Source of the DNA: Deltaproteobacteria bacterium
Lineage (GTDB): Bacteria > Myxococcota > Myxococcia > Myxococcales > 40CM-4-68-19
Reading direction: 5' to 3'
NCBI GenBank assembly: GCA_005879315.1
Contig: VBLC01000040.1
Coordinates: 62,001-126,000, forward strand
Length of the DNA: 64,000 nt
The notes beneath the pieces are model-generated. The model ran no database searches. It was not told the DNA's origin and was given only the letters and a program-made list of their open reading frames with translations. Shown here piece after piece: positions 11,379 to 34,924 of this stretch (within the stretch, counting starts at the first letter, position 1; each line of letters begins with the position of its first letter). The position numbers were made by a program, and so were the translations under genes.

Positions 11379-11910
11379 GCACGTCGGTCGAGTGCTCGAC
11401 GGCCGGTCCCCGCAAGAGAGACTCCTTGTCGAAGACCGCGAGCGGCCGGGAGAGAACTGCGGGAGCGTGGGTGCCCGTGTCCATCCGGATGGCGTCCTTG
11501 GGGCAAGCCTCGACGCAGAAGCCGCAGACGATGCAGCGCAACTCGTCGATCTCGAATCGAACCGGGTACTTCTCGATCGCCTCTTCCTCGTACTCCCCGG
11601 CCTCGATGTAGATGCACTGCGCGGGGCAGGCGGTGGCGCACATGTAGCAGGCGACGCAGCGCGGTTTGCCATCCAGCCGCGGCACCAGGCGATGCATGCC
11701 GCGATAGCCGGGCGGATATTCCTTGCGCTCCTCGGGATAATTGATCGTCGAGACGAGGTTCACGCCCCGACCTTTGCGCTCCATCACTTCCGGAGCGGGG
11801 TCGCGGAAGCCGAAGAGGTTCTTCCAGAAATGGCGGGCGAGGACGCCCATGCCGCGGACGGCCTCGCGCAGATAGAGCCGCTCGCCCGGGCTCAAGTCAG
11901 TGCGAGGCAT
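11341..11910 (-). CDS. nuoI: NADH-quinone oxidoreductase subunit I (first nuo set)
   Basis: The 189-residue ferredoxin-type subunit has two [4Fe-4S] motifs, [15 protein letters not shown] and [12 protein letters not shown], which bind clusters N6a and N6b between NuoG/D and NuoB. An N-terminal amphipathic region ([13 protein letters not shown]) fits membrane association. It is the last gene of the minus-strand nuo set and overlaps nuoH by 14 bases. Length is normal, unlike the extended NuoI at 27158. Confidence 0.93.
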
Positions 11911-13336: not shown

Positions 13337-14841
13337 CGCGCGGCTCCGGCGGGCCGCGGCGCTCGCTTCGGCCACTGCGCGGGGAGAAGCTGCTCGAGCA
13401 CCACGCCTTCTTCGGGAATCGCCTCGAGCTTCAATCCAGGCAGGCCGAGCAGATCGAAGGCAGCCGCCGCGCTCCGAGGTGCCCCGGCGATGCCGAGCCC
13501 GGCGAGGATTCTCTCGGCCCAGCTCCAGGCGGGAGCCGATTCGCCGCGCTCCGCAGGCACGCCCGGCCAGGTGCGCTGCAGGCGGCCATAGTAATTGATC
13601 ACCGAGCCGTCCTGCTCATAGACGCTCTGGCAAGGAAGGGTGACCTGGCCTTCGATGCCCTGGTTCTGGGCGATGGCGATGAAGACCTCGAGAGGCTTCT
13701 CGAGGAGGAGTCCGTCGGTGCGGAAGGCGACCAGGGCCTTGATGCCCTCGACGCTGTCGTGGAGCGTGACGCCCGCAGCTCTGGCCGCCAGCTCGACGCC
13801 CCGCCGGTTGGGATTCTTGTCCTGGCGGATGAGGAAATCATCGCCGTCGCCGTCGAGGCGGGCGGTAAAGAAATACTTCTCCGCTCCGATCCGCGCGCCG
13901 AAATCGAAGGCCGCCGCGGCCTCTTCATTGGTGCACTGCGCGGAGAGAGAAATGCCGATGCCGGGCTTTCCCGCGATGGGCCTGAGGAGCTCGATCGCGC
14001 GCGCCAGATCGCCCTGCTCCACCCGCTTCTCGTTCGTCTCGTGATGGGTGAGCCGGCCCTCGTCGCACATCCAGACCTGGTTGACCTCTTCGTTGCGGCG
14101 CGGGAGCAACCGGTAGATGAGATTTCCGCGGCTCTCCAGATAGACGTTGCAGCCGTTGGCGCAGCCGGTGCAGACCGCCGGGCTCTTCTCTACGAACCAG
14201 ACCCGCGATTGAAAGCGGAAATCGCGGTTCAAGAGAGCTCCGACCGGGCAGATGTCGACGGTGTTGCCCGAGTACTTGCTGTCGAGCGGCTGCCCGGGGA
14301 AGGTGCTGATCAAGGAGTGCGAGCCGCGGTCCACCACCGCCAGCTGCGGCTCCTGCGCGATCTCGTCCATGAAGCGCACGCAGCGGGTGCACATGATGCA
14401 GCGCTCAGCGTCGTAGACGACCAGCGGCCCGAAGATCTCGCGCTTGGGCTTGTTCAACTTGGAAGTGCGGATGCGCGAGGGCTGGTGATCGAACTCCATG
14501 TAATAATCCTGGAGCTTGCATTCGCCCGATTGATCGCAGATGGCGCAATCGACCGGATGATTGATCAAATGGAATTCCATGCAGCCGCGCTGGTTGTCGC
14601 GCACGGCGGGGCTGCTGGTGACGACCTTCATCCCTTCCTTGACCCGTACCTGGCATCCCGGAACGAGGCGGCCGGGCGCGTCGCTCGTTTCCACCAGGCA
14701 CATGCGGCACTGGCCGGCGATCGAGAGCCGCGGGTGATAGCAGAAGTAGGGGATGGCGACCCCGATGCGCCGCGCGGCCTCGATCAGGTTGTCGCGGGGG
14801 TCGGCCTCCACCTCGCGGCCGTCGACGAAGACCTTGGTCAT
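13333..14841 (-). CDS. nuoG: NADH-quinone oxidoreductase subunit G, short form
   Basis: The 502-residue protein has the NuoG Fe-S region in order: [2Fe-2S] (CYHPRLSIAGQCRMC), a His-Cys [4Fe-4S] site (HPVDCAICDQSGEC), a third cluster (CIMCTRC) and the molybdopterin-family cluster (CTGCANGCN). The remaining molybdopterin-like domain is much shorter than in the usual 690-900-residue NuoG. The ATG at 14841 overlaps the nuoD stop (ATGA). This is the only NuoG in the window. No nuoE/F partner is encoded here, so electron entry into this module is not explained. Confidence 0.9.
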   Translation of the reverse strand: MTKVFVDGREVEADPRDNLIEAARRIGVAIPYFCYHPRLSIAGQCRMCLVETSDAPGRLVPGCQVRVKEGMKVVTSSPAVRDNQRGCMEFHLINHPVDCAICDQSGECKLQDYYMEFDHQPSRIRTSKLNKPKREIFGPLVVYDAERCIMCTRCVRFMDEIAQEPQLAVVDRGSHSLISTFPGQPLDSKYSGNTVDICPVGALLNRDFRFQSRVWFVEKSPAVCTGCANGCNVYLESRGNLIYRLLPRRNEEVNQVWMCDEGRLTHHETNEKRVEQGDLARAIELLRPIAGKPGIGISLSAQCTNEEAAAAFDFGARIGAEKYFFTARLDGDGDDFLIRQDKNPNRRGVELAARAAGVTLHDSVEGIKALVAFRTDGLLLEKPLEVFIAIAQNQGIEGQVTLPCQSVYEQDGSVINYYGRLQRTWPGVPAERGESAPAWSWAERILAGLGIAGAPRSAAAAFDLLGLPGLKLEAIPEEGVVLEQLLPAQWPKRAPRPAGAAR

Positions 14842-16049
14842 TGCTCGACCTCGCCGCCGATCATGTTGATCGAGTCGAAGATGGGGATCAGATCGGCGAT
14901 GGCATGGCCTTTGATGAGCCGCGGCAATGCGGAGAGGATCGGCAATCCCGGGCCGCGCACTTGAATGGCGTACGGCTTTCCTTTGCCGTTGCTCACCAGA
15001 TGGAAGCCGAGCTCGCCGTTCGCCCCCTCGGTGTAGACATAGACTTCGCCGGGTGGCACCTGGATGCCTTCGGTGATCAGCTTGAAGTGGGCCATCACGC
15101 CCTCGATGGAGCCGAAGACCTCCTTCTTGGGCGGCAGCGCATAGCGCCAGTCGTCGATGAGGATCGGCCCGGGCGGCATCTGCTCCAGGCATTGCAGGAC
15201 GATGCGGTGCGATTGACGGATCTCTTCCAATCGCAGGATGTATCGATCGTAAGTATCGCCGCTCGCGCCGAGCGGGACTTCGAAATCCATCCGATCGTAG
15301 ACCAGATAAGGATGCGCCTTGCGCACGTCATAGTTGACGCCGGTGGCGCGCAGGCAAGGCCCGGTGAATCCCCAGTCGACGGCCTCCTCGGCGGAGAGCA
15401 CGCCGATCCCGCGGGTGCGATCGATGAAGATGCGGTTGCGGGTGAGGAGCGTGTCGACCTCCCCGGTCAGCTCCATCACCCGCGGCAGGCAGTCGCGCAG
15501 CTTCTGCTCCCAGCCGGGCGGCAGGTCGCTGGCCACGCCGCCGACGCGCGTCCAGGAAGTGGTCACGCGGGCGCCCGTCAATTCCGAGATGCGGTCCCAG
15601 AGCAGCTCGCGCGCCTCCATGGCATAGAGAAAGACGGTGAATGCGCCCAGCTCCAATCCGATGGCGCCGATGCAAGTCAGATGATCGGTGATGCGCGAGA
15701 TCTCCCCCGCCAGGACCCGCAGGTATTGCGAGCGCTCGGTGTCCTTGATGCCGAGCAATTTCTCGACGCCCATGATGTAGCCGACGTTGTTCAGGATCGG
15801 CGAGACGTAATTCAATCGATCGGTATAGGGCAGGACCTGGTGCCAGGTGCTGTGCTCGGACGACTTGCTGAAGCCGCGATGGAGAAAGCCGATCTCCGGG
15901 ACGGCCTCGACGATGGTCTCGCCGTCGAGCGTGACGATCAGACGAACCGTGCCGTGCATGGCCGGATGCGAAGGTCCGAGATTGACCGTCATCGTCGAGG
16001 AAGGAAGCTCAGCCTCGACCGCGAGCGAGTCTTGGATCTGCTCAGTCAT
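14838..16049 (-). CDS. nuoD: NADH-quinone oxidoreductase subunit D (first nuo set)
   Basis: The 403-residue 49-kDa subunit has NLGPSHPAMHG near the N-terminus (quinone-site His), the FLHRGFSKSSEHSTWHQ segment, PYTDRLNYVS and the C-terminal DSINMIGGEVEQ. With NuoB it forms the quinone-binding site. It differs clearly from the copy at 24742, for example FSKSSE here and SIEKIGE there, so the two sets are not a recent duplication. It overlaps nuoC by 8 bases and nuoG by 4. Confidence 0.93.
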   Translation of the reverse strand: MTEQIQDSLAVEAELPSSTMTVNLGPSHPAMHGTVRLIVTLDGETIVEAVPEIGFLHRGFSKSSEHSTWHQVLPYTDRLNYVSPILNNVGYIMGVEKLLGIKDTERSQYLRVLAGEISRITDHLTCIGAIGLELGAFTVFLYAMEARELLWDRISELTGARVTTSWTRVGGVASDLPPGWEQKLRDCLPRVMELTGEVDTLLTRNRIFIDRTRGIGVLSAEEAVDWGFTGPCLRATGVNYDVRKAHPYLVYDRMDFEVPLGASGDTYDRYILRLEEIRQSHRIVLQCLEQMPPGPILIDDWRYALPPKKEVFGSIEGVMAHFKLITEGIQVPPGEVYVYTEGANGELGFHLVSNGKGKPYAIQVRGPGLPILSALPRLIKGHAIADLIPIFDSINMIGGEVEQ

Positions 16050-16692
16050 AGGCGTCGGGGTCCACGTTCTGCCGGCCGACGTGCGTCTGGCTCATCGGCA
16101 CGCCCGCTCCGCCCGGACCGGGACCGGGGCCGCGCACCAGATCGGGAAAGTCCAGCTCCGGCACGAGCGGCTGCCGCTTGCGGACCGGATAGTCCTTTCG
16201 CAATGGATATCCGACGAATTCGGGATAGAGAAGCAATCGCTGCAGATTGGGATGGCCGACGAATTCAATGCCGAACATGTCGAAGACATATCGCTCCCAC
16301 CAGTCGGCCGTTCGATAGAGAGGGGTGATGGTCGGTACCTTCAAGTCGTCCGAGCGCAGCTCGACGCGGACCCGCAGCGATTGTTTCCGGACGATCGAAT
16401 AAAGGTTGTAGGCGACCTGAAATCGCGGCTCGACTCGGGGCTTCTTCTCCAATGCATAGGCGGGCACTTCGATGGAAGCCAATGCGCCTCCACCGGTGCT
16501 CTCGCCGGCGAAGGTGAGCAGATCGACCGCGGCGATCTGCCGCAAGAGCTTCATCTCCGCCTGGTTGCGCAGCAGGGCGACGACGTCGACGACCTGCTCG
16601 CGCCGGACGGTCACCACTTCGTCGCCGCGGTGGGAGGAGCCTTTGGCATCGGGAAACCGCTCCCGGACCAGATCGACCAGGGCCTGCGACAT
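16042..16692 (-). CDS. nuoC: NADH-quinone oxidoreductase subunit C (first nuo set)
   Basis: The 216-residue 30-kDa subunit carries the conserved C-terminal block: TADWWERYVFDMFGIEFVGHPNLQRLLLYPEF, then GYPLRKDYPV. NuoC is structural and docks on NuoD in the peripheral arm. A Gly/Pro-rich tail follows the conserved region. It starts 8 bases after nuoB and overlaps nuoD by 8 bases. Confidence 0.92.
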   Translation of the reverse strand: MSQALVDLVRERFPDAKGSSHRGDEVVTVRREQVVDVVALLRNQAEMKLLRQIAAVDLLTFAGESTGGGALASIEVPAYALEKKPRVEPRFQVAYNLYSIVRKQSLRVRVELRSDDLKVPTITPLYRTADWWERYVFDMFGIEFVGHPNLQRLLLYPEFVGYPLRKDYPVRKRQPLVPELDFPDLVRGPGPGPGGAGVPMSQTHVGRQNVDPDAYD

Positions 16693-16699
16693 GGCGGCG

Positions 16700-17275
16700 C
16701 TATCCCTTCTCGACGGTGGCGGCGCGGTGGAGCTGCGTCTGGATCTTCTCCTGCAGGATCTTGAGGCCGTCGAGTACCTGCTCGGGCCGCGGCGGGCAGC
16801 CGGGCACGTACACGTCCACCGGAATGACGCGGTCGGCGCCCTGCAGGGTGGCGTAGTTGTCGTAGAAGCCGCCCGAGCTGGCGCAGACGCCGAAGGCCAT
16901 CACCCATTTCGGCTCGCACATCTGCTCGTAGACGCGCTTCAGGACCGGGCTCTGCTTGACGTTGATGGTGCCGACGATCATCAAGAGATCCGCCTGGCGC
17001 GGCGTGAATCGAGGGAACTCGGCGCCGAAGCGGGCGATGTCGTAGCGCCCCGCCATCGCCGACATGTACTCCATGCCGCAGCAGGCGGTGACGAAGGGAT
17101 ATTGGAAGATGCTGTTCTTGCGGGCCCAGCCGAGCGCGCTGGAGAGGTTCTTCTCGAAGAAACCGATCGACTCCTTCAGGCGCGAGAGCAGGACGGGGAC
17201 GTTGCCCTCCTCGCCACCCAGCCGCGCCGACTCCGGAACGTTGCCTTCCGGCCGCACCACCGGCAGCGTCTTCAC
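16700..17275 (-). CDS. nuoB: NADH-quinone oxidoreductase subunit B (first nuo set)
   Basis: NuoB holds cluster N2. Its ligands are visible in CCGMEYM, in the Cys of FGVCASSGG and in PGCPPRPE. The GTG at 17275 overlaps the nuoA stop as GTGA; longer in-frame starts run through nuoA and are rejected. The product is 191 residues, with an N-terminal tail of about 30 residues absent from the copy at 23642. Confidence 0.92.
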   Translation of the reverse strand: MKTLPVVRPEGNVPESARLGGEEGNVPVLLSRLKESIGFFEKNLSSALGWARKNSIFQYPFVTACCGMEYMSAMAGRYDIARFGAEFPRFTPRQADLLMIVGTINVKQSPVLKRVYEQMCEPKWVMAFGVCASSGGFYDNYATLQGADRVIPVDVYVPGCPPRPEQVLDGLKILQEKIQTQLHRAATVEKG

Positions 17276-17691
17276 GGATTCCACTCCAGCGCGCCCTTGC
17301 GCCAGACGTAGACGAGGCCGAGCGCGAGCGTGGCCATGAAGGAGAGCATCTCGACATAGGCGAACCAGCCGAGCCCCTCGGCCTGGAAGTCGCGCAAGAG
17401 CGAGCCCCAGGGATAGATGAAGACGCTCTCGACGTCGAAGACGACGAAGAGCAGCGCGACCAGATAGAACTTGACCGAGTGGCGGGAGTGCGAGTCGCCG
17501 ATCGAGGGAGAGCCGCACTCGAAAGCGGTCTCCTTGATGGCGGTGATGCGCTTCGGGCCGAGAAAAGTCGCGGCGGCGCCGATCAATGCGCAGAGCACTC
17601 CCGCGAAGAGAAGCAGGATCAAGACCGGAAGGTAAGGCGAGAGATAATCCAAGGCGCGCAAGCTAATAGCCGCCGGGTGATCCTCTGTCAA
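17272..17691 (-). CDS. nuoA: NADH-quinone oxidoreductase subunit A (first nuo set)
   Basis: The small membrane subunit, up to 139 residues, has three helices, the ECGSPSIGDSHSRHSVKFYLVALLF loop-helix region containing the conserved Cys, and a C-terminal GALEW motif. The start is ambiguous: TTG codons at 17691, 17661 and 17652 are in frame. The last gives the N-terminus typical of the family (DYLSPYLPVLILLL) and does not overlap the upstream gene. It is the first gene of the A-B-C-D-G-H-I set. Confidence 0.88.
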   Translation of the reverse strand: MTEDHPAAISLRALDYLSPYLPVLILLLFAGVLCALIGAAATFLGPKRITAIKETAFECGSPSIGDSHSRHSVKFYLVALLFVVFDVESVFIYPWGSLLRDFQAEGLGWFAYVEMLSFMATLALGLVYVWRKGALEWNP

Positions 17692-23048: not shown

Positions 23049-23137
23049 CGAGGCGCAGCTTGCCACAATGGGCGGCAACCGGCGCAGCGAATGTCCGCCC
23101 CCCGGACGGCCGGGCCGATGCGGCCGATTGCCGCACC

Positions 23138-23165
23138 TTGACTTGCCTCCCCTCTCCCATAGACT
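23138..23165 (+). promoter_or_regulatory. Sigma-70-type promoter of the second nuo operon
   Basis: TTGACT (23138-23143) and TAGACT (23160-23165) are separated by 16 bases, giving 5/6 and 4/6 matches to the -35 and -10 consensus. A start near 23172 would leave a leader of about 22 bases containing GAGGGAG before the nuoA GTG at 23194. Predicted from sequence only. Confidence 0.5.
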
Positions 23166-23193
23166 CTGCGCGGCCATTTCCCGAGGGAGAACC

Positions 23194-23640
23194 GTGCCCT
23201 TCCAGTTCGCCAACGTCCTCATCTTCTCGGCGACAGCCGTCCTTTTCGTCTTCGGATCGCTCGTGGCCGGGCGCTTCTTGCGGCCCGATGCGCCCAACCG
23301 CGAGAAGAGCATGATCTACGAGTGCGGCGAGAAGCCCATCGGGCAGGCCTGGTTCAACTTCAATCCGCGCTTCTACCTGATCGCGCTCGTCTTCGTCATT
23401 TTCGAGGTGGAGATCGCCTTCATGTTCCCGGTCGCCGCCGTCTACAAGTCGTTCATCGAGCGCGGCGAGGGCCTGCTCGCCTTCTTCGAGATCGCCCTCT
23501 TCGTCGGCATCCTCGCGGTGGGCCTGGCCTACGTCTGGGCGATGGGCGATCTGGAATGGGTCAAGGGTCTCAAGCAGGACGTGCTGGCACAGCTGCGCGA
23601 GAAGCAGGCGGCGCCGCCGGCGGAAAAGAAGGCAGCATAA
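23194..23640 (+). CDS. nuoA: NADH-quinone oxidoreductase subunit A (second nuo set)
   Basis: The GTG at 23194 follows GAGGGAG, which decides the start. The 148-residue subunit has three helices, the Cys-containing loop [20 protein letters not shown] and the C-terminal MGDLEW motif. A charged 25-residue tail (to AEKKAA) follows. First gene of an eleven-gene operon; the next gene starts two bases after its stop. Confidence 0.93.
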
Positions 23641-23641
23641 A

Positions 23642-24187
23642 ATGTCGAAGCATTACGCCCAGGACATCGGCTCGGTGGTCACCACCAAGGCCTCGTTCAT
23701 CGACGAGATCATCAATCTCGCCCGCAAGAGCAGCATCTTCTACCTGCTTTTCGGCCTCGCCTGCTGCGGCATCGAGCTGATGCAGACGGGCGGGCCGCGC
23801 GCCGACATCGACCGCTTCGGCAGCGTCCCGCGCGCCACGCCCCGGCAGAGCGATCTGATGATCGTGGCCGGAACCCTGACCTACAAGATGGCCGAGCGCT
23901 GCCGGCTCTTGTACGAGCAGATGGCGGAGCCGAAGTACGTCATCTCGATGGGCTCCTGCGCCAGCTGCGGCGGTCTCTTCCAGTACGCCTATTCGGTGTG
24001 CAAGGGCGTCGACAAGCTCGTGCCGGTGGACATCTACGTCCCGGGCTGCCCGCCGCGGCCCGAGGCGCTCACCGAAGGCCTCCTGCGCGTGCAGGACAAG
24101 ATCATCCGCGAGCGCTGGTTCAGCGAGCGGCAGAAGATCGGCCGCAAGCAGCCGGGCCTGGGCATCGATTACAAGGTGACCGCCTAG
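23642..24187 (+). CDS. nuoB: NADH-quinone oxidoreductase subunit B (second nuo set)
   Basis: The 181-residue subunit has the N2 cluster ligands [15 protein letters not shown] and PGCPPRPE, and the [15 protein letters not shown] block. It joins the quinone site to the Fe-S chain. It abuts nuoC, with TAG then ATG and no gap. Confidence 0.94.
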
Positions 24188-24745
24188 ATGACGTTCGAAG
24201 AGATCCACCAGCGGCTCGCCGCGAAGTTCGGCGACCGCATCGGCCCTCTCGCGCCGGCGAACAAGGACGCCTTTGCTCCCGTGCAGACGCCGGCGATCGT
24301 CGAGATCTGCGAATTCTTGAAAACCGATCCCGAGCTCGCCTTCGATTGCCTGATCAATCTCTCCAGCGTGGACTGGCCGAAGAAGAACCAGATCGAGGTC
24401 GTCTATCACTTCTGGTCCTATCAGAAGCAGCACTCCTTCATCGTCAAATGCCTGCTCGATCGCGCCAAGCCGGAGTTGCCTTCCGTCACCTCGGTCTGGA
24501 ACGCGGCCAACTGGCTCGAGCGGGAGCAGTTCGATCTGATGGGCGTGGTCTTCACCGACCACCCCGACCTGCGCCGCATCATGCTGCCCGACGACTGGGT
24601 GGGAAACCCCTTGCGCAAGGACTACGCAGAGCAGCCCGAGTGGCACAACATCACCACCACCCGCGAGAGCCCGCTGGACGGCTTCGTCCGCCTCGATGAG
24701 CTGGTGAAGAAGAAGGCCTCCGAGAAGAAGGAGGTGCTTCAGTGA
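24188..24745 (+). CDS. nuoC: NADH-quinone oxidoreductase subunit C (second nuo set)
   Basis: The 185-residue subunit has the conserved region [28 protein letters not shown], then [12 protein letters not shown]. It is structural and pairs with NuoD. The stop overlaps the nuoD GTG start, and GGAGGTG near 24731 provides the nuoD ribosome-binding site inside nuoC. Confidence 0.93.
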
Positions 24746-25920
24746 GCAAGCCTCTGGAAATCCCGACCATGGACATGACCCACAAGGAGGTCATGCGCCG
24801 CATCGAGTACACGGGCGACATGCTGCTCAACATGGGCCCGCAGCATCCCTCGACCCACGGCGTGATCAATTTCCTCGTCCAGACCGACGGCGAGGTGATG
24901 AAGCGCGCCATCCCCGAGGTCGGCTACCTGCACCGGAGCATCGAGAAGATCGGCGAGCGCTGCACGTACAACGGCTTCATGCCCTACACCGACCGGGTCG
25001 ACTACATCGCCGCGATGTTCGCCAACCAGGGCTGGGCAATGGCGGTGGAGAGGCTGGGCGGCTTCCAGGTCCCGAAGTACGCCGAATACTGCCGGGTGAT
25101 CGCCTGCGAGTTGAACCGCATCGCCAGCCACCTGATCTCGGTCGGCACCATGGCGATGGACGTCGGCGCGGTGACTCCCTTCCCCTATGCGCTGCGCGAG
25201 CGCGAGTTCATCAACGATCTCCTCGAAGAGCTCTGCGGCGCGCGCCTGACCTACAATTACCTGCGCATCGGCGGGGTCGCCTTCGATCTCCCCACCGGCT
25301 ACGAGGACAAGGTCGCCCACTTCCTCGATCACTTCGAGAAGATCCTCGACGAGTTCAACCGCCTCATCACCTACAACGAGATCTTCATCAAGCGGCTGGC
25401 GAACCTGGCGCCGATCCCCGCCGAGATGGCCATCGACTACTGCCTGGTGGGACCGAACCTGCGCGCCAGCGGCCTGAGCTTCGACGTGCGCAAGCAGCTG
25501 CCCTATTCGGTCTATCCCGAGCTTCACTTCGAAGTTCCGGTGGGCAAGGGCGAGGTCGGGGCCAAAGGCGACGCCTGGGACCGCTTCTGGTGCCGCGTCG
25601 AGGAGATGCGCCAGTGCTGCCGCATCCTCCGGCAGTGCCTCGCCCAGATTCCCAAGGACAAGGAGATCATGGGGAAGGTGCCGCGCAAGATCAAAGTGCC
25701 CGAAGGCGTCGAGGCCTACAGCCGCATCGAGAGCGCGCGCGGCGACATGCAGTACTACGTGGTCGGCGGCGCGGGCGAGAACGCGCACCGCGTGAAGATC
25801 CGCACCGGCAGCTTCACCGCCATGGGGATCATCGACGAGCTCTCGCGCGGGTTGATGATCGCCGACCTGGTGGCGCTGATCGCCTCGCTCGACGTCGTGG
25901 CGCCGGAGATCGACCGATAA
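24742..25920 (+). CDS. nuoD: NADH-quinone oxidoreductase subunit D (second nuo set)
   Basis: The 392-residue 49-kDa subunit shows [38 protein letters not shown] and ends VVAPEIDR, all typical of canonical NuoD. The GTG start overlaps the nuoC stop. It supplies the quinone-binding His and Tyr of complex I. It is clearly a different lineage from the copy at 14838. Confidence 0.94.
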
Positions 25921-25921
25921 A

Positions 25922-27151
25922 ATGCAAGACTTCATCGACAACCTCATCCGCAGCTGGGGCCACGACCCCGCCGCCTGGCCGTGGACGCAGTTCCTCTATC
26001 TCGCCTTCATGGGCGCGGCCGCCTTCATCGTCGTCAATTTCGCCGCCATCTCCGCCGGCATCTTCTCCTGGGCCGAGCGGCGGGTCGCGGCGCGCATGCA
26101 GAGCCGCGTCGGACCCAACCGCGTCGGGCCCTTCGGCTTTCTCCAGTGGGTCGCCGATGCGGTGAAGCTGCTCCTCAAGGAAGACCTGGTGCCCGCCGAG
26201 GCCGACGCGGTGCTCTTCCGCGCCGCGCCCTACTTCATGATGGTGGGATTCGCCTGCGTCTTCGTCTGCCTGCCCTTCAGCCACAAATTGATCGTCGCCG
26301 ACCTGAACATCGGCATCTTCTACATCCTCGCGGTCACGGCGCTGATCGTGGTCGGCATCATCATGAGCGGCTGGAGCAGCAATTCGAAGTGGAGCTTGTT
26401 CGGCGCCATCCGCTCCGCCGCGCAGATCATCTCCTACGAGATTCCCGCAGGCATGGCGTTGATGATCCCGGTGCTGCTCGCCGGCACGCTCAGCACGCAG
26501 GGCATCATTCGCGCCCAGGGCGGCTGGCCCTGGCAGTGGTTCATCTTCGACAACCCGGCCGCCTTCGCCGCTTTCTTCATCTACTTCATCAGCGCGCTCG
26601 CCGAGGGAAACCGCACGCCCTTCGACCTCCCCGAGGCGGAGTCGGAGCTGGTCTCGGGCTACAACACCGAGTACAGCGGCATGCGCTTCTCCTATTTCTT
26701 CCTCGTCGAATGGGGAAACATGTGGGTGATGAGCGCGATCGCCACCACCATGTTCCTCGGCGGATGGCAGCTCCCCGGCCTCTCGCCGGCCAGGTTCGAC
26801 GCGCTCACCGGCGGCGTCGCGGTCATCGCCGAGATCGCCTCGCTGGCGCTCTTCGCCTTCAAGACGCTCTTCTTCGTCTTCGTGGTGATGTGGCTGCGCT
26901 GGACGCTGCCGCGCATCCGCGTCGATCAGATGATGAACATGTGCTGGAAGTACCTGGTGCCGGCCAGCTTCGCCGGCGCGCTCTTCGTCGCGGCCTGGAT
27001 GCTTCTGGTGCACGAGGCGCCCTGGCTCGGCCAGGCGATGCGCTTCGCGCTCACCGCCATCGCCGCCGTGACCGTGGCCGCCTTTGCTCTGCGCACGCTG
27101 AAGAACCTCCGCGACACCGGCGACAAGTTCGATTTCACGAGCAACTGGTGA
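25922..27151 (+). CDS. nuoH: NADH-quinone oxidoreductase subunit H (second nuo set)
   Basis: The 409-residue membrane subunit has ERRVAARMQSRVGPNRVGP near residue 50, PFDLPEAESELVSGYNTEYSGM in the conserved loop and LRWTLPRIRVDQMM near the C-terminus. It forms the quinone chamber and links to the proton path. The gene starts two bases after the nuoD stop. Confidence 0.94.
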   Translation: MQDFIDNLIRSWGHDPAAWPWTQFLYLAFMGAAAFIVVNFAAISAGIFSWAERRVAARMQSRVGPNRVGPFGFLQWVADAVKLLLKEDLVPAEADAVLFRAAPYFMMVGFACVFVCLPFSHKLIVADLNIGIFYILAVTALIVVGIIMSGWSSNSKWSLFGAIRSAAQIISYEIPAGMALMIPVLLAGTLSTQGIIRAQGGWPWQWFIFDNPAAFAAFFIYFISALAEGNRTPFDLPEAESELVSGYNTEYSGMRFSYFFLVEWGNMWVMSAIATTMFLGGWQLPGLSPARFDALTGGVAVIAEIASLALFAFKTLFFVFVVMWLRWTLPRIRVDQMMNMCWKYLVPASFAGALFVAAWMLLVHEAPWLGQAMRFALTAIAAVTVAAFALRTLKNLRDTGDKFDFTSNW

Positions 27152-27157
27152 CCGAAC

Positions 27158-28240
27158 ATGGCTGAACAGCTCGCACCTCCCGCGAAGTCCTCTGGCCCGA
27201 TGGGCGCGTACGCCAAGAACGTGCGCGACACCGCCAAGAGCTTCTGGGAAGGCATGAGCATCACGCTCAGCTACATGTTCCGGAAGCCGATCACGACGCA
27301 GTATCCGGACCGGGTGGGCGTGCCGGTGCGCGACACCATCCCGGCGCGCTACCGCGGCTTCCTCGAAGTGGACATGGACATCTGCACGGCCTGCCTGGCC
27401 TGCGAGCGCGCCTGTCCCATCGCGGTCATCAACATCGACGTCGTCAAAGGCGATGGAAAGACCCGCCCCAAGCTCAACATGGAGCGGTTCGACATCGACA
27501 TCGGCAAGTGCATGTACTGCGGATTGTGCGTCGAGCCCTGCCCGACCGGCGCCATCCAGCACACCCGCGAGTTCGAAGGCGCCGTCATGCACTTCGACAA
27601 CCTGACGCTGCGCTTCGTGCCCGACCCGACCAACCCCATCCCGGCCTACAAGGTCCCGAAAGGCTCCGACGCATTCCCGCGCCGGCCGCTCGGCGAGATC
27701 ACCCGCAAGCTGATCAAGGCCTGGGACGCGCCGCCGCCGCCCTTCCCCTCGATGGAGGAGGCAGCGAAGGCGAAGGAACACGGCGCGCCCAAGGAGGGCG
27801 GGCTCGATCCCTCCGCGATGGGCCGGCAGCTCGCCGCCAAGGCTCTCTCCGTCAAGGAGGACAAGCCCAAGCTGCAGAAGGTGCTGGAAGAGGCCATGGC
27901 CGGCACCGACTGCGGCGATTGCGGCTATCCCGACTGCTTCGGCTATTCGAACGCCATCGCGCAGGGCAAGGATACCGCGACCGACAAATGCGCTCCGGGC
28001 GGCGCCGATTCGAAGGCGATGCTGGAGACCATTCTCGTCACGCTCAAGACCGGCGCCGTTCCCGCCCCAGCCACGCCCGCAGCCGGCGCCGTTCCCGCCC
28101 CGGCCACGCCCGCAGCAGCCGCCTCTCCAGCGCCGCCAGCCGAGGCGAAACCCGAAGCTCCCGCAGCTCCCGAAGCTCCGGCGAGCCCGCCGCCCGCGCA
28201 GGACGAGATCCCGCTGGGCACCAAGCCTCCTCCGAAGTAG
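27158..28240 (+). CDS. nuoI: NuoI fused to an RnfB-like FeS domain and Pro/Ala tail
   Basis: The first 195 residues are a complete NuoI with two [4Fe-4S] motifs, CTACLACERACP and CMYCGLCVEPCP. A linker follows, then CGDCGYPDCFGYSNAIAQGK with a fourth Cys in TDKCAPGG. This C-x2-C-x4-C-x(16)-C spacing is that of the FeS domain (PF04060) in RnfB and corrinoid Fe-S proteins. The last 60 residues are Pro/Ala-rich and contain a tandem repeat. At 360 residues it is twice the usual NuoI. The extra cluster could be another electron entry or relay point, which matters because this operon lacks E, F and G. The fusion is seen directly; its function is inferred. Confidence 0.88.
   Translation: MAEQLAPPAKSSGPMGAYAKNVRDTAKSFWEGMSITLSYMFRKPITTQYPDRVGVPVRDTIPARYRGFLEVDMDICTACLACERACPIAVINIDVVKGDGKTRPKLNMERFDIDIGKCMYCGLCVEPCPTGAIQHTREFEGAVMHFDNLTLRFVPDPTNPIPAYKVPKGSDAFPRRPLGEITRKLIKAWDAPPPPFPSMEEAAKAKEHGAPKEGGLDPSAMGRQLAAKALSVKEDKPKLQKVLEEAMAGTDCGDCGYPDCFGYSNAIAQGKDTATDKCAPGGADSKAMLETILVTLKTGAVPAPATPAAGAVPAPATPAAAASPAPPAEAKPEAPAAPEAPASPPPAQDEIPLGTKPPPK
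28052..28117 (+). repeat. Two-copy 33-bp in-frame tandem repeat in nuoI tail
   Basis: Two adjacent 33-base units, 28052-28084 and 28085-28117, differ at two positions and encode an 11-residue Pro/Ala unit (GAVPAPATPAA). This is probably a slippage expansion of a disordered tail and may vary in length between strains. Confidence 0.8.
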
Positions 28241-28252
28241 AGTGCGCCGCCC

Positions 28253-29092
28253 ATGGCCAGCTCCAACCTGCGCGCGTATCTCGTGCGCCTCGCGGTCCTT
28301 CTCGCGGGTCTGTTTCTCCTGGCGGGCGCGGGGCTCCTGCACCGCTTCGCGCAGCTCCCCACTGCGCTGACGCTGCTCGCGCAGTACCTGGGCATGGTGG
28401 GCATCCTCTGGGGGCTGAACGCCTTCTTCTTCCGCCGCGTGCCGCTCACCGGGGTGGTGCTGTTCGTCTTCTCTGGCGCGGCCTTCGGCGTGCTCTTCTT
28501 TCTCGGCTTCGTCCTCCAGGAAATCGTCGGACCCTGGCTGATCGACTCGGCCGGCCGCTTCATCGGCCTGGTGCGCCTCACCGATCTGATCTTCTACGCC
28601 TTCGCCCTGATGACGGTCCTGGGCGCGGCCGGCTGCGCCTTCTCGGGCAACATCATCTACTCGGCCTGGTCGCTGCTCTTCGCCTTCATGGGCGTGGCCG
28701 GGCTCTACGTCTTTCTCGGCGCTGATTTCCCGGCGGTGGCGCAGGTGCTCATCTACGTGGGCGGCATCCTCGTCCTCATCCTCTTCGCCATCATGCTCAC
28801 CAAGCAGATCGGCGAGGACCCCAAGCTGACCAACGCGCACCTCGCGCTCCCGGTGGGCGGCGCTCTGGGCGCGGTCACGGTGGGCACGCTCTCGTACATG
28901 GCAGTGATGGCGCCCTGGAAGGTTGTGGCCGCACCCAGCTACCAGCCGGTGAGCGCCGCGCTGGGCGTCGCCTTCTTGACCGACTATCTCTTGCCCTTCG
29001 AAGTCGTGTCGGTGGTCCTGCTCGCGGCGCTGGTCGGCGCGGTGGTGATCGCGCGCAAGGAGATCAAGGAGACTTCGGACCAGCCGATATGA
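28253..29092 (+). CDS. nuoJ: NADH-quinone oxidoreductase subunit J with N-terminal extension
   Basis: Residues from about 115 on are a normal NuoJ: LIFYAFALMTVLGAAGCAF, then FVGGILVLILFAIML-like (VYVGGILVLILFAIMLT region) and further helices. The first roughly 110 residues add about three more hydrophobic helices not present in usual 170-200-residue NuoJ proteins. I do not recognise the extension. It may be an accessory membrane domain fused to the subunit. The stop overlaps the nuoK ATG (ATGA). Confidence 0.88.
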   Translation: MASSNLRAYLVRLAVLLAGLFLLAGAGLLHRFAQLPTALTLLAQYLGMVGILWGLNAFFFRRVPLTGVVLFVFSGAAFGVLFFLGFVLQEIVGPWLIDSAGRFIGLVRLTDLIFYAFALMTVLGAAGCAFSGNIIYSAWSLLFAFMGVAGLYVFLGADFPAVAQVLIYVGGILVLILFAIMLTKQIGEDPKLTNAHLALPVGGALGAVTVGTLSYMAVMAPWKVVAAPSYQPVSAALGVAFLTDYLLPFEVVSVVLLAALVGAVVIARKEIKETSDQPI

Positions 29093-29406
29093 CCAGCATC
29101 GGATTGCCCCATTTCCTCATCGTCGGCGCCGCTCTCTTCGCGCTGGGGATGATCACGGTGGTCACGCGGCGCAACGCCGTCGGCATCCTCATGGGCGTCG
29201 AGCTCATCTTGAATGCCGCCAACGTCAACTTCATCGCCTTCAACCATTATGTCGAAGGCCCCGGCAAGGTGACCGGCCAGGTCTTCTCCATCTTCGTCAT
29301 CGTGCTGGCGGCGGCGGAGGCGGCGGTGGGGCTCGCCATCGTCCTCGCCATCTATCAGACCTTCCGCACCATCGACGTGCAGGAGACCGACACGCTTCGC
29401 CAATAG
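29089..29406 (+). CDS. nuoK: NADH-quinone oxidoreductase subunit K
   Basis: The 105-residue protein has three helices with the conserved membrane glutamates, in GVELILNAANVNFIAF and AAAEAAVGLAIVLAIY. NuoK is related to MrpC and helps carry protons. Size and pattern are canonical. It overlaps nuoJ by 4 bases and precedes nuoL by 4. Confidence 0.94.
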   Translation: MTSIGLPHFLIVGAALFALGMITVVTRRNAVGILMGVELILNAANVNFIAFNHYVEGPGKVTGQVFSIFVIVLAAAEAAVGLAIVLAIYQTFRTIDVQETDTLRQ

Positions 29407-29410: not shown

Positions 29411-31789
29411 ATGGAACACGCCGACAACATCGCTCGCGCCATCGAGGTGAGCTGGCTCTGGCTCATCCCCGCCTTCCCGCTCCTCGGCGCGGCCCTCAAC
29501 GGCCTCTTCGGCGCGCGGCTGCAGAAGCGCTACGGCAAGCCCGCGGTGCACACCATCGCGGTCGGCGCCATGGTGCTCTCCTGCCTCGTCGCCGAAGCCG
29601 TCCTCTGGGGAAAGATCTTCGGCGCCGCGCCCTCCGATCGCTTCCTGGAAAATCATCTCTGGACGATGTGGCAGTCGGGCGCGCTCAAGGTGGACCTGAG
29701 CTTCGGCATCGACCCTCTCGGCATGGTGATGACGATGATCGTCACCCACGTCGCGACGCTCATCCACGTCTATTCCGTCGGCTACATGGCCGACGAACCG
29801 TCCTACTGGCGCTTCTTCTTCTGGCTCAACCTCTTCGTCTTCGCGATGCTGCTTCTGGTGATGGGCAGCAACTTCCTCGTCATGTTCTTCGGCTGGGAGG
29901 GAGTGGGCCTCTGCAGCTGGGGGCTGATCGCTTTCTGGTACACCGATCTGGAGAAGGCGAAGGCGGGCTTCAAGGCATTCATCGTCAACCGCTTCGGCGA
30001 CTTCGGCTTCATCATCGGGCTGTTCATCCTCTTCTGGTCGCTGAGCGGCAGCTGGTCGTCCAGCGGCAAGTACCTTCCCGAGCGTCGCCTGTCCGGCCGC
30101 GTCCTCGGCACCTTCGCCGAGCCGGCCCGCCTCTCGCAGAACGGCGTCCGGCTGGGCCCGACCGTCGAGTTCCGCGAGCTGCGCAACCAGGTCGTCGACG
30201 AGAAGAGCGGCGTGGCCGAGCGCCTCTCGCACATGCAGCTCTGGGGCGTGCCGGTCCTGGCGCTGATCTGCATCCTCTTCTTCGTCGGCGCGGCGGGAAA
30301 AAGCGCGCAGATTCCCCTCTACGTCTGGCTCCCGGACGCGATGGCCGGACCAACGCCCGTCTCGGCGCTGATCCACGCGGCGACGATGGTCACCGCCGGC
30401 GTCTACATGGTGGCGCGGCTCAACTTCCTTTTCGCGCTGAGCAGCGCGGCGATGAGCGTGGTGGCTTGCATCGGCGTCCTCACCGCGCTCTTCGCCGCCT
30501 CGATCGGCTTCTTCCAGTACGACATCAAGAAAGTCCTCGCTTACAGCACCGTCAGCCAGCTCGGCTTCATGTTCATCGGCGTCGGAGTGGGCGCCTACTG
30601 GGCGGGAATCTTCCATCTGATGACGCACGCCTTCTTCAAGGCCTGCCTCTTCCTCGGCAGCGGCAGCGTCATCCTCGCCTGCCACCACGAGCAGGACATG
30701 CGCAAGATGGGCGGTCTGGCGAAGTACACGCCCATCACCCGCTGGACCTATCTGATCGCCTGCGTCACCATCGCCGGCTTCCCGGTGGCGAGCGCCTTCT
30801 ATTCCAAGGACGAGATCCTCTGGAAGGCGTGGACGGCGGGCTCGCTCGCGGCGCCCTGGCTGGGCCAGGCGATCTATCTGGTGGGCGCGATCGCCGCGCT
30901 CGGCACCAGCTACTACATGTTCCGCTCCTATTACATGACCTTCACCGGCGAGTACCGCGGCGGGAGCGGCCACAAGGACAAGGAGCGCCTCGAGGACCCT
31001 CACTCCATGGCCGCGCACGTGCACGCCCACGCCTCAGCCCTGGCTCACGGAGAGGACGGCGCGCAGGTCGCGGCCAGCACCCAGCCGCACCAGCACGACG
31101 CCTCGCACGGCGCGGGGCCCGATCCGCATCACGGCGGCGTGCCGCACGAGTCGCCGAAGAGCATGACCTACGTGCTGATCGCGCTCGCCGCCGCGTCGAT
31201 CCTCGCTGGATTCATCTTCGGATTGCCTTCCGCCTGGACCGGGCAGGAACCGCTCCTCGAGCGCTTCCTCGCGCCGAGCCTCCCCGCGGCCGAGCTGGTG
31301 AAATTCCACGAGGAGCCGCACGCGACCGAATTCCTCTTCCAGTTGGTCGGCGGCGTCGTCATCGCCGGCGGCGGCTGGCTGGTCGCGCGCATCCTCTACA
31401 AGGATGCGCGCAGCACCGCTCCGGCGCGCCTCAAGGAAATGTTCCCGCGCGTCTGGGCGCTCGTCTACAACAAGTACTACGTCGACGAGATCTACCAGGC
31501 CACCGTCGTGCGCGGCGCGCTCCTGCTCGACCGGGTCGCTTACTGGTTCGACCAGAACGTCATCGACAGCCTGGTCAACTTCATCGCCCTGCTCGGCCGC
31601 GCCGTCGCCTACTTCGACAAGTTCATCGACGAGCACCTCGTCGACGGCGCAGTCAACGGCATCGCGGACTTGACCCTCAACGGCGGCCGCGCGCTCCGGC
31701 GGCTGCAGACCGGCCACATCCAGTCCTACCTCTACGGAGCGCTGGGCGGCGCAATCGCCTTCGTCATCCTCCAGTACGTCATCCGATAA
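29411..31789 (+). CDS. nuoL: NADH-quinone oxidoreductase subunit L with long inserts
   Basis: This antiporter-like subunit has FFGWEGVGLCSWGLIAFW, the helix VWLPDAMAGPTPVSALIHAA and FFKACLFLGSGSV. At 792 residues it exceeds the usual 610-690. One insert at about residues 217-273 is polar. A second at about 534-583 is very His-rich, with ten His in about 50 residues (segments HVHAHA, QPHQHD, PHHGG). The lateral helix and final helix follow. The inserts lie in loops between helices; the His-rich one could bind metal, which is inference. Confidence 0.93.
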   Translation: MEHADNIARAIEVSWLWLIPAFPLLGAALNGLFGARLQKRYGKPAVHTIAVGAMVLSCLVAEAVLWGKIFGAAPSDRFLENHLWTMWQSGALKVDLSFGIDPLGMVMTMIVTHVATLIHVYSVGYMADEPSYWRFFFWLNLFVFAMLLLVMGSNFLVMFFGWEGVGLCSWGLIAFWYTDLEKAKAGFKAFIVNRFGDFGFIIGLFILFWSLSGSWSSSGKYLPERRLSGRVLGTFAEPARLSQNGVRLGPTVEFRELRNQVVDEKSGVAERLSHMQLWGVPVLALICILFFVGAAGKSAQIPLYVWLPDAMAGPTPVSALIHAATMVTAGVYMVARLNFLFALSSAAMSVVACIGVLTALFAASIGFFQYDIKKVLAYSTVSQLGFMFIGVGVGAYWAGIFHLMTHAFFKACLFLGSGSVILACHHEQDMRKMGGLAKYTPITRWTYLIACVTIAGFPVASAFYSKDEILWKAWTAGSLAAPWLGQAIYLVGAIAALGTSYYMFRSYYMTFTGEYRGGSGHKDKERLEDPHSMAAHVHAHASALAHGEDGAQVAASTQPHQHDASHGAGPDPHHGGVPHESPKSMTYVLIALAAASILAGFIFGLPSAWTGQEPLLERFLAPSLPAAELVKFHEEPHATEFLFQLVGGVVIAGGGWLVARILYKDARSTAPARLKEMFPRVWALVYNKYYVDEIYQATVVRGALLLDRVAYWFDQNVIDSLVNFIALLGRAVAYFDKFIDEHLVDGAVNGIADLTLNGGRALRRLQTGHIQSYLYGALGGAIAFVILQYVIR

Positions 31790-31793: not shown

Positions 31794-33392
31794 ATGGATC
31801 ATCCGACCACATCGACAATCCTCAGCTGGATGACTTTCCTGCCGCTCATCGGCGCGGCGCTCATCCTCTGCGTCGTCGGCCTGCGCGCCAGCGGGCTCGT
31901 GCCAAAAGCGATGGCCGACCAGATCCACCGCGTCATCGCGCTCGCCGCCTCGAGCGCGGTGCTGGTGCTCGCCTTCGTGCTCTGGCGCGGGTTCGATCCG
32001 GACAATCCCGGGGTGCAATTCGTCCAGCACGCCCGCTGGATCACCGCCTACAACATCGAATACTTCGTCGGCGTCGACGGCATCTCCATCACGCTGATCA
32101 TGCTCACCGCGCTGATCAGCTTCATCGCCACCATCGCCTCGATGCCCTGGTGGCCGGGCAATGCGCACCTCGACGAGCACCACTTCACCCAGCGCGGCGT
32201 CGCCGGGTACATGGCGATGCTGCTCATCCTGCAGACGGGCATGATGGGGGTCTTCGTCGCGCTCGACATGTTCCTCTTCTACGTCTTCTGGGAAGTGATG
32301 CTCCTGCCCATGTACTTCCTCATCGGCATCTGGGGCGGCTCGCGCAAGGAGTACGCCGCGATCAAGTTCTTCCTCTACACCCTGGCGGGCTCGGTCCTGA
32401 TGCTGCTCGCCATCATCGGCCTCTACTTCAACGGCCCACAGGAGGTCGTCGACGGCCGGCTGGTCCACTCCTTCAACATCCTGAAGATGGCGCAGTGGGG
32501 CCGCGCGGGCGGATACCTCGCGGCGCCGCTGGTCCTCGGCTTCACTTTCGTGCGCGCTGCCTGGATCGCGCTGTTCATCGGATTCGCGATCAAGATCCCC
32601 ATGTTCCCCTTCCATACCTGGCTGCCCGACGCGCACGTCGAGGCGCCCACGCCCATCTCCGTCATCCTCGCCGGCATCCTGCTCAAGATGGGCATCTACG
32701 GCATCCTCAGAGTCAATTTCGCCATCTTGCCGCAGGCGACCAAATGGGCCGCGCCGGCGATGGCCACGTTCGGCGCCATCAACATTGTCTACGCCGCCTT
32801 CGTCTGCCTGGCGCAGAAGGATCTCAAGCGGATGATCGCCTACTCGTCGGTTTCCCACATGGGCTTCTGCCTGTTGGGCATGAGCGCCTTCACCCAGCAG
32901 GGGATCGACGGCGCCGTCTTGAATCTCTGGACGCATGGATTGATCAGCCCGATGCTCTTCCTCATCGCCGGCGTGATCTACGACCGCGCCCACCACCGCA
33001 ACATCGAAGGCTTCGGCGGGTTGGCCCAGCAGGTCCCCGAGTACGCCGGGCTGATGGGCCTGGCCTTCTTCGCCTCGCTCGGTCTGCCGGGCCTGTGCGG
33101 CTTCGTCAGCGAGTTCACCGTCTTCCTCGGCTCGCTCGTGCGCTGGCAGACCCTGACCATCCTCAGCGCCGTCAGCGTGATCGTCACCGCCGCGTACTAT
33201 CTCTGGGCCATCCAGCGGATGATGCTCGGCAAGCTCAATCCGCAGTACAGCACGCTGCCCGACGTCAACTGGCGCGAGCGCCTCACCCTCTATCCCTTGG
33301 GCGCTTTGATCATCGTCTTCGGCTTCTATCCCCAGGCCATCTTCACGCTGATCGAAGGCTCGCTGAGAAACCTCCTCCTGCCTTTGCAATGA
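31794..33392 (+). CDS. nuoM: NADH-quinone oxidoreductase subunit M
   Basis: The 532-residue antiporter-like subunit has FYVFWEVMLLPMYFLIGIWGG with the key Glu, PFHTWLPDAHVEAPTPISVILA and AYSSVSHMGFCLLG. It provides one of the proton channels of complex I. Length is normal. The stop overlaps the nuoN ATG. Confidence 0.94.
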   Translation: MDHPTTSTILSWMTFLPLIGAALILCVVGLRASGLVPKAMADQIHRVIALAASSAVLVLAFVLWRGFDPDNPGVQFVQHARWITAYNIEYFVGVDGISITLIMLTALISFIATIASMPWWPGNAHLDEHHFTQRGVAGYMAMLLILQTGMMGVFVALDMFLFYVFWEVMLLPMYFLIGIWGGSRKEYAAIKFFLYTLAGSVLMLLAIIGLYFNGPQEVVDGRLVHSFNILKMAQWGRAGGYLAAPLVLGFTFVRAAWIALFIGFAIKIPMFPFHTWLPDAHVEAPTPISVILAGILLKMGIYGILRVNFAILPQATKWAAPAMATFGAINIVYAAFVCLAQKDLKRMIAYSSVSHMGFCLLGMSAFTQQGIDGAVLNLWTHGLISPMLFLIAGVIYDRAHHRNIEGFGGLAQQVPEYAGLMGLAFFASLGLPGLCGFVSEFTVFLGSLVRWQTLTILSAVSVIVTAAYYLWAIQRMMLGKLNPQYSTLPDVNWRERLTLYPLGALIIVFGFYPQAIFTLIEGSLRNLLLPLQ

Positions 33393-34924
33393 ACAACATC
33401 CACTCGCTGCGGTTCTTCTGGCCGGAAAGCGTCCTCACCGTCGCGGTGCTGGCGATGTTGGTGCAGGACCTCTTGGTGCGACGCAGCCCGCGGCGCGTGG
33501 GCTTGCTGACCATCGGCGCTCTCTTCTGGCTGGCGCTGACCGCACTCGCCACCTGGAGGACGCCCTGGGGGAACTTCCCCATCTTCGGCGGCCTCCTGGT
33601 GCACGACCCGCTGCGGATCTTCTTCGCCTGGCTCTTCCTCGCCGCCGCGCTGCTCACCGTCGTCATCGTCCCCCGCAGCAAGGAGATCTCCAGCGCGCGG
33701 CTGGGCGAATTCTTCGCGCTACTCTTCGCTCTCTTGCTCGGCATGTACCTGATGGCGAGCGCGGCCGATCTGCTGCTCATCTACCTGAGCATCGAGACGG
33801 TCTCGCTGGTCAGCTACGTGCTCACCGGCTTCCAGCGCGGCAGGCGCCGCGCCAACGAGGCGGCGCTCAAGTACGTCATCTACGGCGGCGTCGCCTCCGG
33901 CATCATGCTCTACGGGATCAGCATCCTCTACGGACTGTTCGGGACGACGCGCGTCGCCGGCGAGGGCGGGATCGGCGCGCAGCTGGCCGACGTCACCAGC
34001 CGTCTCTTTCTCGCCCACGCCTTCGGCGGCCAGCCCGCGGCGCAGCTGGCGCTCGTGGTCGCGGTCGTCTTCCTTCTCGCCGGCGTCGGCTACAAGATCG
34101 CCGCGGTCCCCTTCCACATGTGGTCGCCCGACGTGTACGAGGGCGCGCCGACGCCGTTCACCGCCTTCCTCTCGGTCGGACCCAAGGCGGCCGGATTCGC
34201 CGTGGCCATCCGCTTCTTCTTCGCCGCTTTCGAGCGGCAGCTGCCGGGCGGCGGCTACGCCCAGGTCGGCGACCTCCCCTGGCCCGCCATCATCGGGATC
34301 ATCAGCGCGATCAGCATGACCCTGGGGAACCTCACCGCCATCGTCCAGTCGAACGTCAAGCGGCTCCTGGCGTACAGCTCCATCGCCCACGCCGGATATC
34401 TCTTGATGGGCCTCGCTGCGGCCAGCACCGCCGGGGTGCAGTCGATCCTCATCTATCTCATCATCTACGTGCTGATGAACGTGGGCGCTTTCCTCGTCGT
34501 CATCGCCGTCTCGCGCGAGACGGGCGGCGAGGACATCAAGGACTTTCGCGGTCTCGGCACGCGCGCTCCCATCGCCGCATTGGCGCTGGTCATCTTTCTC
34601 TTCAGCCTGACGGGAATCCCGCCCTTTGCCGGCTTCATCGGCAAGTACCTCATCTTTGCCGCGGTGGTGCAGCGGGGCGGTTTCTGGAACGTGCTGCTGG
34701 CGGTGATCGGCGTCCTCAACAGCGCCATCTCGCTCTTCTATTACGCGCGGCTGATCAAGGCGATGTACCTCGAGGAGGCGATCGACCAGCGCCCCTTCCG
34801 GGTGCCCGCGGTCTACACCGGCGTTCTCGTCGCGCTGGCGGTGCCGAACAGCTTCCTCATCTTCTACTGGACGCCGCTGGTGCGCTGGGCGGCTGCGGCC
34901 TTCGGCGGCTCGCCATCGTCATAG
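33389..34924 (+). CDS. nuoN: NADH-quinone oxidoreductase subunit N
   Basis: The ATG at 33389 overlaps the nuoM TGA and gives 511 residues; longer frames are read through nuoM and rejected. Hallmarks are LLIYLSIETVSLVSYVL, PFHMWSPDVYEGAPTPFTAFLS and LLAYSSIAHAGYLLMG. It is the last gene of the operon. No clear terminator follows in the 230-base gap. Confidence 0.94.
   Translation: MNNIHSLRFFWPESVLTVAVLAMLVQDLLVRRSPRRVGLLTIGALFWLALTALATWRTPWGNFPIFGGLLVHDPLRIFFAWLFLAAALLTVVIVPRSKEISSARLGEFFALLFALLLGMYLMASAADLLLIYLSIETVSLVSYVLTGFQRGRRRANEAALKYVIYGGVASGIMLYGISILYGLFGTTRVAGEGGIGAQLADVTSRLFLAHAFGGQPAAQLALVVAVVFLLAGVGYKIAAVPFHMWSPDVYEGAPTPFTAFLSVGPKAAGFAVAIRFFFAAFERQLPGGGYAQVGDLPWPAIIGIISAISMTLGNLTAIVQSNVKRLLAYSSIAHAGYLLMGLAAASTAGVQSILIYLIIYVLMNVGAFLVVIAVSRETGGEDIKDFRGLGTRAPIAALALVIFLFSLTGIPPFAGFIGKYLIFAAVVQRGGFWNVLLAVIGVLNSAISLFYYARLIKAMYLEEAIDQRPFRVPAVYTGVLVALAVPNSFLIFYWTPLVRWAAAAFGGSPSS

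Follow-up and report, generated by a model that had tools for sequence, protein, structure and literature searches.

The NDH-1 complexes of cyanobacteria and chloroplasts (6l7o), which comprise 11 core subunits together with accessory subunits, amount to a complex I without the NADH module and use ferredoxin as their electron donor. In the cyanobacterial complex, ferredoxin docks on NdhI and reduces cluster N6a (PMC7021789). An 11-gene complex I without nuoE, nuoF and nuoG has also been described in bacteria, in a recent study that reports having identified no shared donor protein (PMC11238625); for most bacteria the source of electrons for this 11-subunit form is still unsettled. In the Rnf complex, another major respiratory pump, the FeS domain of RnfB is described as mobile, picking up electrons where ferredoxin docks and relaying them to the membrane core (PMC9588780; PMC12174285). 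This RnfB domain, FdI (PF04060; 8ahx_B, 7zc6_B), has CxxC-x4-C...C ligands, is solvent-exposed and is tethered by flexible linkers, with a two-cluster ferredoxin fold beside it in the same chain.

The window—the whole stretch of DNA that was analysed, 64 kb in length—carries nuoABCDHIJKLMN on the plus strand at 23.2–34.9 kb, without nuoE, nuoF or nuoG, and so encodes an 11-subunit complex I by gene content. These are the same 11 genes as in PMC11238625, a likeness drawn from the description given there and not from sequences; unlike the window's NuoI, an FeS extension of NuoI goes unmentioned in the available part of that paper. The genes of this operon (operon A) are as follows.

23257..23640, plus strand: nuoA (PF00507; start codon not settled)
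23642..24187, plus strand: nuoB (TIGR01957)
24188..24745, plus strand: nuoC (TIGR01961)
24742..25920, plus strand: nuoD (NF004739 above cut-off)
25922..27151, plus strand: nuoH (NF004741 above cut-off)
27158..28240, plus strand: nuoI-FeS, 360 aa (open reading frame with Fer4 and FeS Pfam matches, flanked by nuoH and nuoJ)
28253..29092, plus strand: nuoJ (PF00499 at aa 125–266; long N-terminus)
29089..29406, plus strand: nuoK (NF004320)
29411..31789, plus strand: nuoL, 792 aa (TIGR01974)
31794..33392, plus strand: nuoM (TIGR01972)
33389..34924, plus strand: nuoN (PF00361; start inferred)

NuoJ of this operon has about 110 additional N-terminal residues, which include likely membrane helices, ahead of its conserved part. 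The 792-aa NuoL has an insert near aa 210–270 and a His-rich loop near aa 530–590, both numbered from the translation of the window's protein alone. Among those genes flanking the operon that were identified, no ferredoxin or dedicated electron-donor gene was recognised: upstream lies a gene at 22533–23312 with no Pfam match, and downstream a PilZ gene. Nor was such a gene recognised between nuoI and nuoJ of genome G068, where two small ORFs (L064:6184-6818) resemble, by eye, a PIN-domain toxin and its antitoxin. No RNA family reached its gathering score in the 64-kb window.

The nuoI-FeS product can be divided into four parts.

27206..27727, plus strand: NuoI core with two 4Fe-4S motifs, aa 17–190 (Fer4_7 at aa 76–132; fold match to NdhI/NuoI chains)
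27728..27808, plus strand: Pro-rich flexible linker, aa 191–217 (low pLDDT, fast evolving)
27809..28054, plus strand: RnfB/CFeSP-type FeS domain, aa 218–299 (PF04060, AF2 pLDDT 88, structural match to the CFeSP N-terminal domain)
28055..28237, plus strand: Pro/Ala tail (a second FeS domain with the same LGTKPPPK end is found here in relatives)

A preliminary description had read this gene as a two-cluster NuoI joined to a third Fe-S domain of the RnfB or corrinoid Fe-S type, followed by a repetitive Pro/Ala tail, and each of these elements is present. The 360-aa protein contains two intact C-x2-C-x2-C-x3-C-P motifs of NuoI/TYKY, CTACLACERACP and CMYCGLCVEPCP, whose clusters are N6a and N6b in complex I nomenclature. 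A third group is formed by Cys 252, 255, 260 and 278 (codons at 27911, 27920, 27935 and 27989), giving C-x2-C-x4-C-x17-C; the first part of this pattern agrees with the earlier reading, while its last spacing had been given as x16. The profile search proposed at that stage places PF04060 (FeS) at aa 249–276 with 30.1 bits (E 4e-7), above the Pfam gathering cut-off of 23 bits, and the family is matched by all 21 homologous domains from related loci. Across those 21 rows the four cysteines and the motif DCGxCxYxxC are nearly invariant. A chance match is thereby dismissed.

The protein is not RnfB itself. The NCBIfam rnfB model TIGR01944 aligns to the FeS part only (aa 221–294) and, at 62.3 bits, falls short of the 68.7 required; moreover, the FeS domain lies at the C-terminal end and the neighbours are nuo genes. 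The nuoI-FeS gene is also the single PF04060 match of the window's genome, and there is therefore no RnfB there, so that an Rnf operon was likewise rejected. Against the NuoI model TIGR01971 the protein scores 94.4 bits, with a curated cut-off of 113.05 that no NuoI in the 116 genomes of the class attains, those of the 14-gene type included. NuoI-FeS, though no RnfB, may work as the FeS domain of RnfB does.

An AlphaFold2 model from 25 sequences has a confident core and FeS domain joined by a low-confidence linker, with a pTM of 0.42, as expected for tethered domains. Foldseek with the full-length model gives NdhI or NuoI chains as top matches, the first being NdhI from the ferredoxin-NDH-1L complex (6l7o_I, E 8e-8). 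Modelled alone from 21 sequences, the FeS domain has a pLDDT of 88.4; Foldseek with this domain alone returned no significant match. When the best 111 Foldseek chains were re-aligned to it, the N-terminal [4Fe-4S] domain of CFeSP ranked first and second (4c1n_G, Z 5.4; 2ycl_A, Z 5.1; 56 residues, rmsd 2.2–2.4), modest Z scores that are followed by 3.0 for the next, unrelated row. An hmmsearch of the PDB with the domain found RnfB (8ahx_B, 2.2e-7; 7zc6_B, 1.4e-3) and, weakly, CFeSP. The closest solved relatives of the domain are thus RnfB by sequence and the CFeSP [4Fe-4S] domain by fold, as the preliminary description had supposed. Ligands and fold are in place, and the domain is predicted to bind a [4Fe-4S] cluster.

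With the RnfB FdI domain, to which it is homologous, the NuoI-FeS domain shares the cysteine ligands, solvent exposure, the flexible tether and the adjoining two-cluster ferredoxin fold. It differs in lying C-terminal to the dicluster domain, in lacking a membrane helix and in its last ligand spacing, which is one residue longer than in the three RnfB proteins compared. An acidic cluster loop and the complex I operon context are further features of NuoI-FeS: the loop around the first FeS-domain cysteine is acidic in 21 of 21 distinct rows, many of them near copies (net charge -1 to -5), whereas in three RnfB from the phylum it carries 0 to -1. A more basic NuoI core in FeS-bearing proteins was ruled out, since core net charge does not vary with the domain (the two means are 1.57 and 1.58). 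NDH-1, whose NdhI is closest in fold to the full-length model, uses a separate [2Fe-2S] ferredoxin aided by NdhS/V/O; in NuoI-FeS a [4Fe-4S]-type domain is instead part of the NuoI chain itself. The CFeSP N-terminal domain, which reactivates corrinoid, is alike in fold and cluster motif (2ycl, 4c1n), but the corrinoid domain is absent from NuoI-FeS. A full-text literature search, to which subscription papers did not belong and which is weak evidence in that respect, showed no such NuoI–PF04060 fusion in the titles and opening lines of abstracts among the matches listed, and 'NuoI' and 'extension' are absent from the main text of a recent genome survey of complex I (PMC12361115).

The mobile domain of Rnf and the docking of ferredoxin on NDH-1 together make the FeS domain most likely a swinging [4Fe-4S] carrier at N6a. 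On balance we consider it probable, from these parallels, that a mobile RnfB-like arm passes electrons from ferredoxin through the FeS domain to the NuoI of an 11-subunit complex I without an NADH module, and so to quinone. An FeS domain with one [4Fe-4S] cluster (two such domains in close relatives) would be tethered to NuoI of the 11-subunit complex and would swing on the Pro-rich linker. Reduced ferredoxin, or a ferredoxin-reducing enzyme such as 2-oxoacid:ferredoxin oxidoreductase, would donate electrons to it, and it would hand them to the exposed outer NuoI cluster N6a, from which they would run via N6b and N2 to quinone with proton pumping. The arm would occupy the place of NuoG and act like the mobile FeS domain of RnfB. 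Of this scheme, the analysis shows the domain with its ligands and tether, the selection acting on it, the operon devoid of nuoE/F/G and the separate 14-gene complex with a NuoI that has no such domain; binding of the cluster, its docking at N6a, the donor and the flow direction are what we infer. More tentatively, and with some doubt, one or two RnfB-type [4Fe-4S] domains tethered to NuoI could take over from the entire NADH module as a swinging arm, producing a built-in ferredoxin:quinone proton pump beside a normal NADH-oxidising complex I of the same cell, with electron entry split by redox potential.

That some orthologous operons encode an FeS domain covalently joined to NuoI, which close relatives do not have, points to a donor of the ferredoxin type. 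Its presence and absence among relatives is a natural experiment, in that the arm can be deleted, mutated and transplanted, and such an arm would connect Rnf and complex I, two major respiratory pumps, via a common moving part.

The same genome encodes a second complex I (complex B) with all 14 genes, split over two loci. Seven of them, nuoA, B, C, D, G, H and I, lie in the window at 11341–17691 on the minus strand, divergent to operon A.

17272..17691, minus strand: nuoA (PF00507)
16700..17263, minus strand: nuoB (PF01058; start approximate)
16042..16692, minus strand: nuoC (PF00329)
14838..16049, minus strand: nuoD (PF00346)
13333..14841, minus strand: nuoG (PF10588, PF22117; start inferred)
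11897..13375, minus strand: nuoH (PF00146; start not settled)
11341..11910, minus strand: nuoI, 189 aa, without an FeS extension (Fer4_7)

The other seven, nuoE, F, J, K, L, M and N, are on contig C65 of the same genome (G000; L009, 6246–13960). The absence of NuoE, NuoF and NuoG noted earlier thus holds for operon A and not for the genome, which has nuoG in the window itself and nuoE and nuoF on another contig. The same divergent pair of an 11-gene and a 14-gene complex I was observed in Anaeromyxobacter-like relatives.

Among the genomes surveyed, operons like operon A are here called type A, the 14-gene complex I type B, and a more distant 11-gene kind type C. The extension profile (A2) matches 12 of 116 genomes of the class (10 NuoI-FeS and two RnfB) and 18 of 195 genomes of the phylum; reading of the loci assigned the latter to 16 NuoI-FeS and two RnfB (G073 and G123). 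The 16 include G136, where only a fragment beginning within the domain is available, and G108, which has a 34-aa gap in the NuoI core. A profile of the type-A NuoI core (A3, E <= 1e-50) matches in 56 of 195 genomes, to which G108 and G136 are added for a type-A total of 58. The FeS domain is found in 16 of these and missing from 42, and it is therefore not needed for running without an NADH module: it is an improvement that type-A operons can do without. Every match of the FeS profile on a NuoI falls on a type-A NuoI, and none on a NuoI of the 14-gene type.

Of the 47 type-A stretches that were read, none has nuoE or nuoF, and where nuoG appears it belongs to the divergent type-B operon; five of the 47 offer little operon information, since they show only nuoI or nuoH–nuoI. 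In these five, L060 (G053), L135 (G190), L142 (G192), L143 (G194) and L144 (G127), nuoI-FeS or nuoH–nuoI stands apart from the remaining nuo genes, followed in two of the five (L135 and L142) by a large adenylate-cyclase-like gene. Type C, about 30–55% identical to type A, was observed in other genomes of the class (L063, L066, L067, L070–L073, L075, L076 and L079–L081); the type-C stretches read have neither nuoEFG nor the FeS domain.

All 116 genomes of the class have NuoF (TIGR01959), as do 14 of 15 additional genomes. It occurs in 15 of the 16 genomes with the extension, G137 (91% complete) having given none. Genome-wide loss of NuoEFG was accordingly rejected as the cause of the extension, the window's own genome having a full 14-gene complex I, and the co-occurrence with nuoEFG loss that the preliminary description had proposed to check fails. 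That description also held that the entry-point idea would weaken if the extension accompanied complete 14-gene operons; counted by species it does accompany them, and counted by operon it does not. Its reading of the extension as an alternative electron input is partly supported and is still the best available: it keeps the identity of the domain and the NuoEFG-less paralogue, and loses the link to nuoEFG loss, and it is weakened further by the 42 of 58 type-A operons lacking the domain. The extension marks a NuoEFG-less paralogue in genomes that have a normal complex I too and does not follow NuoEFG loss. The hosts are soil and groundwater bacteria related to myxobacteria, with a second complex I that lacks the NADH-reading part.

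The presence of NuoE, NuoF and NuoG in the same genome, and of NuoF in nearly all extension genomes, also allows that the 11-gene complex borrows these three subunits from complex B, with the FeS domain adding to or stabilising that input. We regard this as very unlikely: the remaining 11 subunits are all encoded for complex B as well, which accounts for its NuoEFG, and an RnfB-type domain would be expected to crowd the NuoG site.

As to candidate donors of electrons to the arm, the window's genome encodes a 2-oxoacid:acceptor oxidoreductase (TIGR03710, 596.5 bits against a cut-off of 482.75), and PF01558, the gamma component of 2-oxoacid:ferredoxin oxidoreductase, is found in 103 of 195 genomes. 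Within the class, an 11-gene operon of type A or C is encoded by 42 genomes, of which 40 have PF01558, as against 10 of the 74 without such an operon (Fisher 3e-19, ignoring kinship; G059, with two NuoI matches, is counted in this 116-genome table as lacking the operon). Across the phylum the figures are 54 of 56 type-A genomes and 49 of 139 others (Fisher 1e-16, again ignoring kinship). Both PF01558 and the 11-gene operon may follow lifestyle. Inside type A, a tie between the FeS domain and PF01558 was rejected, PF01558 being present in 15 of 16 FeS-bearing and 41 of 42 FeS-lacking genomes; G068 has the FeS domain and no PF01558 match.

The association with PF01558 is also compatible with flow in the opposite direction, in which proton motive force would drive the uphill reduction of ferredoxin by quinol and electrons would leave through the low-potential FeS domain as the exit port. 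The RnfB and CFeSP domains serve low-potential chemistry, and a variant complex I of Nitrospina has been proposed for flow from quinol to ferredoxin (PMC3578206). An ordinary 2-oxoacid dehydrogenase E2 in the window's genome suggests ordinary oxidative metabolism, however, and reverse flow appears quite unlikely; forward flow from ferredoxin is preferred on the present analysis.

The repetitive tail that follows the FeS domain ends in LGTKPPPK, the sequence that closes a second FeS domain (CGDCEYPDC...) in close relatives. A profile search of database contigs found six loci encoding a relative, all of this group (Myxococcales and Deltaproteobacteria MAGs); five of them have a tandem pair of FeS domains, and L006 has one, like the window. 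Two FeS domains are also present in G068, which belongs to the same order but to a different family, and the second is missing in the window's genome and in G108. Because the ends are the same, the second domain has most likely been lost in the window's protein, which would make it a shortened form of a two-domain protein. Beside the site of the relatives' second domain, the tail contains a tandem repeat of about 33 bases (PAPATPAAGAV, 28053–28130), possibly a deletion scar or an assembly problem.

The tree of type-A NuoI comprised 52 cores and one outgroup over 163 columns, with the trait columns excluded. On it the FeS trait changes seven times, of which at least five changes are forced by well-supported branches (shuffled mean 12.5), and some sister pairs differ in state, for example G165/G166 and G091/G156. 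These changes, together with the 42 of 58 genomes without the domain, make the FeS domain dispensable. Seven families have the extension, and in six of them the domains share the motif TDCG-x-C-x-Y, which favours one old origin followed by repeated loss, on a tree that has long branches and is itself equally open to gain and loss. Seven sequences from families f1 and f8 have a mean pairwise identity of 0.80 in both the NuoI core and the FeS domain, 0.59 in the linker and 0.57 in the tail; in pairs with the window's sequence the domain has dN of 0.06–0.27 and dS of 0.49–1.63. As judged from these alignments, the FeS domain is as conserved as NuoI itself, and linker and tail drift.

Patchy presence with repeated gain or loss, the viability of relatives without the domain and the loss of the second domain in the window's lineage would all suit an FeS domain that lies off the electron path, as a docking, assembly or redox-sensing appendage or as a cap that shields the outer NuoI cluster from oxygen where the NADH module is missing. 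The near invariance of the four cysteines and of DCGxCxYxxC, and evolution as slow as that of the catalytic core, are what is expected of a working cluster, and an off-path role is in our view unlikely. The preferred reading remains that of a mobile carrier between ferredoxin and NuoI.

Two relatives have changes in the NuoI clusters themselves. In G108 (L088/L006), NuoI is missing 34 aa in frame, the second cluster motif among them, which could be real decay or an assembly fault. In G165 (L137:2825-4156), a NuoI-FeS whose FeS motif is C-x3-C-x4-C, the second cysteine of the first cluster motif is replaced by Asp (CIGDLQCQRVCP), so that, on the predicted protein, one ligand of a complex I cluster has changed naturally.
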